Assembly (NCBI GenBank): GCA_022447665.1
Contig: JAKVAQ010000016.1
Location: 62,001-126,000 of the forward strand
Source of the DNA: Crocinitomicaceae bacterium
GTDB taxonomy: Bacteria > Bacteroidota > Bacteroidia > Flavobacteriales_D > Crocinitomicaceae
Length of the DNA: 64,000 nucleotides
Direction: 5' to 3'
The position numbers were made by a program, and so were the translations under genes. Positions 57,035 to 58,740 of the stretch are shown here, in pieces. The notes below the pieces were generated by a model. That model worked only from the letters and a program-made list of their open reading frames with translations. It had not been told where the DNA came from and did not search any database. Position 1 is the stretch's first letter; every line of letters begins with the position of its first letter.

Positions 57035-58102
57035 ATGGATACATTCGTTGTTTCGGCGAGAAAATATCGCCCACAAACCTTTAATACTGTTGTAGGACAA
57101 GAGTCCATTACAACAACTTTGCAGAACGCAATTCAGAACAATCATTTAGCACAAGCGTTTTTGTTCTGTGGTTCACGAGGAGTGGGTAAAACAACTACTG
57201 CAAGAATCTTAGCAAAAACCATTAACCAAGATGGGAACGAAAACCCTGAAGAGGATTTTGCTTTCAATATTTTTGAACTTGATGCCGCTTCGAATAACTC
57301 GGTGGATGATATACGAAATCTTATTGATCAAGTTCGAATACCGCCACAAGTTGGAAAATACAAAGTCTACATAATAGACGAGGTACACATGTTATCTCAA
57401 GCAGCGTTTAACGCGTTTTTAAAAACATTAGAAGAGCCCCCGAAACACGCCATATTTATTTTGGCAACAACGGAGAAACATAAGATTCTTCCGACTATTC
57501 TTTCACGCTGTCAAATTTTTGATTTTCATAGAATCAAAATCCATGATATTGTAAACCACCTAAAATCAATTGCAGAGAAAGAAAGCATAAAGTATGAAGA
57601 AAAAGCACTTCACATAATTGCTCAAAAAGCAGATGGCGGACTGCGGGATGCACTCTCAATTTTTGACCAAATCGTCTCTTTTACTAATAATAACATTACA
57701 TATGATGCGGTTCTCGAGAACCTTAATGTCTTAGATTATGATTATTATTTCAAAATTGTGGACAATGCACTGAACAATGAGATCCATGAGACTTTGGGAC
57801 TTTATAATGACGTATTAAGTAAAGGATTTGAAGGAGCACAATTTATGGTTGGCTTGGCAGAACATCTGCGAAACCTCTTAATATGCTTAAGTCCAAAGAC
57901 TTCTGCGCTATTGGAAGTACCGAGTGAAATTGAGGCAAGATTTGGTGAACAAGCAGCAAGAACGAATACACAATTTCTACTTTTAGGTTTAGACCTATGG
58001 CGTGATACCGAAATGCAATATAAAGGAAGTATTCACAAGAGACTCACGGTCGAAATCGCCTTAATGAAATTATGTTCGATTAATAAGGCCCAAGAAAGCT
58101 AA
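57035..58102 (+). CDS. dnaX: DNA polymerase III gamma/tau subunit, N-terminal (gamma-like) part
   Basis: The AAA+ clamp-loader motor of 355 residues. Walker A is CGSRGVGKTTTARILAK, the Walker B/sensor region is VYIIDEVHMLSQAAFN, then TLEEPPKHAIFILATTE, and the SRC motif is LSRCQIF. The usual zinc-binding Cys cluster is absent, as in flavobacterial relatives. The frame stops at 58100-58102, after domain III, and the tau-type tail continues as a separate frame that begins at TAATG. The result is a gamma-like protein. It is either a real gene split or a frameshift; see the next entry. Confidence 0.9.
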   Translation: MDTFVVSARKYRPQTFNTVVGQESITTTLQNAIQNNHLAQAFLFCGSRGVGKTTTARILAKTINQDGNENPEEDFAFNIFELDAASNNSVDDIRNLIDQVRIPPQVGKYKVYIIDEVHMLSQAAFNAFLKTLEEPPKHAIFILATTEKHKILPTILSRCQIFDFHRIKIHDIVNHLKSIAEKESIKYEEKALHIIAQKADGGLRDALSIFDQIVSFTNNNITYDAVLENLNVLDYDYYFKIVDNALNNEIHETLGLYNDVLSKGFEGAQFMVGLAEHLRNLLICLSPKTSALLEVPSEIEARFGEQAARTNTQFLLLGLDLWRDTEMQYKGSIHKRLTVEIALMKLCSINKAQES

Positions 58103-58740
58103 TGTTCTCGCATTATTCCATAACAATTTTACCGTTTGACGGGCAAGGTGAGTCTTCTGCTCCAGCAAAAAAAGTGGAGAAAAAGGCGGTAGCTGCTCCT
58201 AGATCCTCCAACCCTGTTAAAGTCTCATCAACAAATAAAACAGTTACGCAAGTTACGGCTAGTTCAGGGCAATTTAGATCTGGAAACATTGGAATACTTG
58301 ACTCTTTATCGCCTAAATCGAAAAAGAAAGCTGGAACTGAAGATTTAATTATCGAAGCGCGTGATTCTTTTACTGAGGATGAATTACTGCGTCAAGTGAA
58401 GTTATTTGCGCACAAAAAGAAAAAAGAAGAAGGTGCAAACAACCTATTTTCTACACTAACAGCAAGTAAAATAACCATTCACGATCAGTTTAGCGTGAGA
58501 CTTCACGTTCTTAACTCTACCCAAGGCAAACAACTAGATGCCATTAAAATGGATCTACTAAATCACTTGCGTTCTTCTTTGAACAATGGTGGAATAACCT
58601 TTGAGCATGTGATGGCCGAAAAGAAAGTTGAGCAAACTGCTAGCTTTACTGACAAGAAATCTCAGTTCGACGAGCTAGCCTCCTCTAACCCTTCCCTCGA
58701 AAAATTCCGAAAATTATTTAATCTGGATATTGAGTATTAG
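58102..58740 (+). CDS. dnaX: DnaX C-terminal (tau-specific) part in a separate frame
   Basis: A 212-residue product whose start ATG overlaps the stop of the upstream gene as TAATG. It begins with a Lys/Ala/Pro/Ser-rich linker (APAKKVEKKAVAAPRSS) and ends with the tau C-terminal domain (SFTEDELLRQVKLFAHKK, then SLEKFRKLFNLDIEY), which binds the polymerase alpha subunit in related bacteria. It has no ATPase. It lies in the -1 frame relative to the gamma-like part. I see no slippery heptamer near the junction, so reinitiation at TAATG is more likely than programmed frameshifting, unless there is a sequence error. Confidence 0.82.
   Translation: MFSHYSITILPFDGQGESSAPAKKVEKKAVAAPRSSNPVKVSSTNKTVTQVTASSGQFRSGNIGILDSLSPKSKKKAGTEDLIIEARDSFTEDELLRQVKLFAHKKKKEEGANNLFSTLTASKITIHDQFSVRLHVLNSTQGKQLDAIKMDLLNHLRSSLNNGGITFEHVMAEKKVEQTASFTDKKSQFDELASSNPSLEKFRKLFNLDIEY

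Follow-up and report, generated by a model that had tools for sequence, protein, structure and literature searches.

Within the window, as we call the whole 64,000-nt stretch of DNA analysed here, dnaX lies on the + strand in two open reading frames (ORFs): a gamma-like ORF of 355 aa (57035–58102) and, in the -1 frame relative to it, a tau-tail ORF of 212 aa (58102–58740). The first ORF comprises the AAA+ clamp-loader core, the lid and domain III. It matches TIGR02397 over model positions 3–355 of 355 (399 bits against a cut-off of 250, E 2e-119) and also exceeds the cut-offs of PF13177, PF22608 and PF12169 (domain III), so the AAA+ clamp-loader N-terminal part of DnaX is present by family-model cut-offs. 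Against the DnaX gamma/tau model NF011531, the gamma ORF aligns to positions 1–366 of 614 (613.7 bits, E 4.6e-184) and the tail ORF to positions 429–613 of 614 (62.2 bits, E 4.2e-17). Jointly the two ORFs cover 1–366 and 429–613 of this model, each alone scoring below its cut-off of 685 bits, and a full-length tau in one open frame was not found at the locus. These matches bear out the sequence-only reading of this DNA, which had proposed a 355-residue gamma-like ORF ending after the clamp-loader part and a tau tail running in the -1 frame from an ATG within TAATG.

A search of the remaining genome (4.06 Mb, 84 contigs, 99.98% complete) did not, at the depth used, reveal a second dnaX or a full tau; it returned two weak gamma matches at 30% identity and one weak tail match (E 8.9e-4) containing a stop. 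The gamma part has a peculiarity of its own. The DnaX zinc module (C-x7-11-C-x2-C-x2-C after the P-loop) is found in 102 of 103 family loci and is missing in the window only, where NQDGNENPEEDFAFNIFEL (57205–57290) stands in place of the four-cysteine module.

The two frames meet at TAATG (58100–58104), where the gamma stop TAA (58100–58102) and the tail ATG (58102–58104) overlap by 1 nt; the geometry of termination-reinitiation, a second start overlapping the first stop, is thus present. Because the tail frame is closed upstream by a TAA at 58084–58086, which bounds any possible entry into it, the stretch open in both frames amounts to only 13 nt 5′ of the gamma stop (58087–58099). As had been noticed earlier, this overlap contains neither a slippery heptamer nor a homopolymer: its longest A run is 3, so that the poly-A stretch of described two-ORF dnaX genes (at least 7 in PMC3711429) is absent from the frame transition, and A_AAA_AAG, other X_XXZ_ZZN heptamers and even Z_ZZN tetramers are all lacking. 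No stimulatory downstream stem-loop was predicted at the window junction (z +1.10, with 178 of 200 shuffled sequences folding at least as well, by single-strand prediction), and the folding of eight junctions, seven from the clade described below including the window and one from an A-run relative, was unremarkable throughout (z -1.21 to +1.13). With no motif and no RNA structure, poly-A slippage and classical -1 frameshifting were rejected for the window.

To place the junction in its family we examined 240 same-family genomes, with no other member of the window's own genus listed among them; 222 gave a match at E ≤ 1e-100, and inspected the junction in 103 of the matched loci, largely the better-scoring ones. 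In 102 of these 103 loci, isolates included, a stop closes the gamma frame directly after domain III and the tail goes on in the -1 frame. Of these 102 split loci, 86 carry a run of 9–12 A's where both frames are open (A9 in 14, A10 in 62, A11 in nine and A12 in one). The remaining inspected locus, L167 (G110:C58), has dnaX as one uninterrupted frame of 575 codons, with EKKKWLTDPVDIIPFPSQ at the usual break, and is perhaps a reversal of the two-ORF form.

Sixteen genomes, including that of the window, have A runs of at most 7 in the overlap. We built a midpoint-rooted tree of 24 rows, comprising these 16, seven of the 86 A-run genomes and L120, a genome that keeps an A10 run and whose gamma is 72% identical to that of the window. 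A single branch, with all 16 short-run genomes to one side of it, has support of 93/85, which is below the tool's starred level, and recurs in 90% of 200 bootstrap trees; the longest branch (1.15) is that of the window. Within the group, the A_AAA_AAG heptamer is retained in three genomes (L004, L007 and L117), Z_ZZN tetramers alone occur in seven further genomes, and no Z_ZZN is found in the window, L005, L113, L114, L115 and L122, among which L113 and L114 are near copies.

The tail is clearly recognisable in spite of the break. A profile built from the tails of 23 other genomes, the window excluded, matches the window tail at E 3.5e-50. Immediately 3′ of the junction lies the segment ITILPFDGQ (58120–58146), which reads I.I[LI]P[FY].GQ in relatives. 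Its substitutions are mainly synonymous, both between the window and 16 relatives (pS 0.60, pN 0.17) and among 13 relatives of the ATC type introduced below (pS 0.75, pN 0.13), which shows that the segment is under protein-level constraint; the tail frame must therefore be entered before it. The C-terminus (58654–58737, ending FRKLFNLDIEY) is likewise conserved in the comparison of tails. The two close pairs usable for dN/dS of the tail gave 0.034 (L113/L114) and 0.094 (L115/L116), synonymous sites being saturated or nearly so for the window.

An AlphaFold2 model of the tail based on 21 tails (mean pLDDT 70.0, pTM 0.44) has a disordered linker, a folded part at residues ~90–172 (58369–58617), where pLDDT is mostly close to 90 (residues 90–170), and a helical C-terminus. 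Foldseek returned no match to this model at E 0.001 or better, 5fku_E (the E. coli Pol III complex with tau) ranking 17th at E 0.46, and a PDB sequence search with the tail profile gave no match at E 10 or better. With VIA-align 2, DciA (8a3v_C, Z 7.8) came near the top, as did the DnaA N-terminal domain (2e0g, Z 7.5); both scores are below the caution line of 8. Since DciA, DnaA domain I and DnaX domain V have the KH fold in common (PMC9912922), this likeness is compatible with tau domain V without proving it, and the folded part is probably the KH-like, polymerase-binding domain V.

How the tail frame is reached can be narrowed down by its start codons. In the window, only one canonical start, the ATG at 58102, lies 5′ of the conserved segment; the next tail-frame start comes 24 codons further on. 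Two other short-run genomes also have a start at the junction, as ATGA in L119 (same sequence as L040) and as GTGA in L123 (same sequence as L041), and these two and the window occupy separate branches of the tree. A canonical start at an offset of -1 or +2 relative to the gamma stop is thus found in 3 of 16 short-run genomes versus 0 of 86 long-run genomes, a comparison weakened by the constrained codons that A-run genomes have near the stop, and chance alone may well place a start codon at one of a handful of positions. Over the wider range of offsets from -7 to +5, the 86 A-run loci again contain no canonical start (one has a TTG at +8). Close spacing of genes is common around the locus: in 15 of 39 same-strand neighbouring ORF pairs in the window, the dnaX pair among them, the second start lies no more than 10 nt from the preceding stop, as counted on mechanical ORFs rather than curated genes. 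The lack of a Shine-Dalgarno motif means little here, because Bacteroidetes use one in <10% of overlapping pairs (PMC6728339).

No canonical start occurs at the junction in the other 13 short-run genomes, and the clade must therefore have another route into the tail, possibly one that the window has in common with it. For five of them (L005, L113, L114, L115 and L122), entry into the tail frame takes place within 10 nt, and the overlap holds neither a Z_ZZN nor a canonical start. In L005, which has the same sequence as L038, a Crocinitomix algicola isolate, the overlap is 10 nt (junction at 2604–2616, turned so that gamma is on +) and the first tail-frame ATG, GTG or TTG comes 81 codons downstream. 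In L113–L115 a GTG or TTG occurs 7–9 codons in, within the conserved segment, and in L122 there is an ATG at 16. The post-junction segment of these five genomes, two of which are near copies, is nonetheless constrained as protein (pS 0.73, pN 0.06). Judged by codons and motifs, their entry route must be something other than a canonical start or a Z_ZZN. The ATC-type relatives are so called after a conserved ATC codon that precedes the gamma stop by 4 nt. This codon is a possible but weak candidate for a non-AUG start; it is weak because this place reads ATA (Ile) in L120, a genome that keeps the A10 run, making Ile probably the ancestral coding residue, and because the gamma frame constrains the same bases.

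The split as such is of a known kind, because two-ORF dnaX genes with poly-A have already been described: Antonov et al. 2013 list -1 breaks in 17 dnaX fs-genes from 12 genera, 12 of them with poly-A stretches, and slippage is proposed there as the route to tau (PMC3711429). A reversed gamma/tau arrangement is also noted in a review (PMC5009743). The window agrees with the two-ORF poly-A genes of PMC3711429 in having a gamma ORF followed, directly after domain III, by a tau-tail ORF in the -1 frame, but differs from them in that its longest overlap A run is 3 and the start overlaps the stop. As in E. coli, one locus provides both the short gamma and the parts of a long tau; however, E. coli tau is the unshifted product and A_AAA_AAG shifts ribosomes to gamma, whereas the window has no heptamer and its gamma ends in the zero frame (PMC5009743). 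Thermus thermophilus, where dnaX undergoes transcriptional slippage, resembles the window's A-run relatives in having an A run after the clamp-loader part, and differs from the window in that Thermus tau is one ORF and the window has no A run (PMC3711429, PMC5009743). The 1-nt overlap of start and stop is shared with described termination-reinitiation pairs (PMC6728339, PMC10666635). Those pairs are ordinary neighbouring genes, whereas the window pair corresponds to one protein that relatives appear to fuse by slippage. Coupled genes most often overlap by 4 or 1 nt, and such overlaps are enriched among subunits of heteromeric complexes (PMC10666635). In the open-licence literature, which leaves subscription journals mostly outside, we found no paper on a dnaX split by reinitiation, nor one linking Crocinitomix and dnaX.

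Taken together, these observations suggest the following course of events. The ancestor would have had a two-ORF dnaX with the gamma stop just after an A9–A12 run, on which slippage would have produced fused tau, as the sequence pattern and the proposal in PMC3711429 suggest. The A run would then have decayed in the window's clade and, in the lineage of the window, the gamma stop and an ATG would have come to overlap as TAATG. Ribosomes finishing gamma could restart at this ATG and make the tau tail, that is the linker and the polymerase-binding domain V, as a second protein, and the gamma and tail proteins would presumably meet in the replisome. We consider it reasonably probable that the window makes gamma and the tau tail in this way, as two proteins by termination-reinitiation and with no fusion. 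Reinitiation is favoured because the -1 relation is conserved, no slippage signal is left, and the ATG is the sole canonical start that keeps the conserved segment. Judged by its distribution among relatives, the -1 break itself is ancestral and already described, and the derived features of the window are confined to the missing A run and the overlap of start and stop. The earlier proposal that reinitiation yields two proteins thus stands as the best-supported explanation for the window, with the separate products still an inference, while the -1 break that it took as its starting point belongs to an ancestral two-ORF design.

The strongest alternative is that an unrecognised -1 ribosomal shift within the 13-nt overlap still gives fused tau, the ATG being incidental. 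The five genomes with neither start nor Z_ZZN imply that some unrecognised route operates within the clade, the -1 frame is kept in 102 of 103 loci, and a covalent tau would be expected to be useful. We nevertheless regard such a shift as unlikely in the window, where the overlap has no tetramer, heptamer or A run, where RNA structure is lacking as it is in the other folded junctions, and where the gamma stop, relative to the conserved tail codons, is placed differently from that of the ATC-type relatives. Less probable still is that the tail is expressed independently, from its own promoter or by internal entry, or that it is decaying. The window tail is only 29–38% identical to the tails of 16 clade members, and a nearly invariant Trp is Val in the window. 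This divergence is, however, no greater than that of others: at similar gamma identity, tails are 33.8% identical over 16 pairs with the window and 32.2% over 89 pairs without it, by which faster decay of the window tail was rejected, and the frame is open, the C-terminus conserved and the profile match strong. Finally, the tail frame opens no more than 13 nt ahead of the stop, and one missing base could mimic a split in one genome. That an indel of sequencing or assembly has broken a single dnaX frame is nevertheless very improbable and nearly refuted, since an error in one genome cannot account for 102 of 103 family loci, isolates among them, sharing the -1 break at an identical position, with a single frame in L167 only; the sequence-only reading had noted that the lack of a homopolymer weakens the commonest explanation by sequencing error.

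Tau is regarded as a covalent bridge between the clamp loader, the polymerase and the helicase. If termination-reinitiation operates as proposed, a tau split into two proteins would show that this bridge need not be covalent. An unlinked tail is at the same time a functional puzzle, because in E. coli the polymerase and the helicase are coupled by covalent tau (PMC11470591). One way of holding a separate tail, docking of the post-junction segment on domain III, is unsupported: the linker is disordered in the AlphaFold2 prediction for L102, an unbroken relative (25-row alignment, mean pLDDT 73.2, pTM 0.47), with residues 361–442 below pLDDT 50.

What is new, as far as the aligned loci can tell, is that the slippage run is gone from a two-ORF dnaX and a start-stop overlap stands in its place. 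If this history is correct, it would trace a path by which programmed slippage decays, from an A10 run through A_AAA_AAG (three genomes) to no recognised signal, and start-stop overlaps appear in three lineages along it. The most surprising aspect is the unexplained entry route of the relatives into the tail frame, and the five relatives without a recognised entry make an unrecognised kind of recoding, or non-AUG reinitiation, directly testable. More tentatively, the clade as a whole may have dismantled tau-fusing slippage and make the clamp loader and the polymerase-binding tail as two coupled proteins. Most members would then enter the tail without a canonical start, either reinitiating on the conserved AUC that precedes the gamma stop by 4 nt or shifting to the -1 frame without a slippery sequence, the AUC having become AUG in the window. 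We regard this extension to the clade as possible but doubtful.

Two further observations were made in the survey. In L025 (G003) and L053, possibly one organism, an in-frame TAA after ~260 codons interrupts the gamma part, which could reflect a pseudogene, an error or something else. In more distant loci (L076, L079, L095, L098, L104 and L111, mostly Bacteroidales) the gamma end also lies near an A run, and the linker is longer or different.
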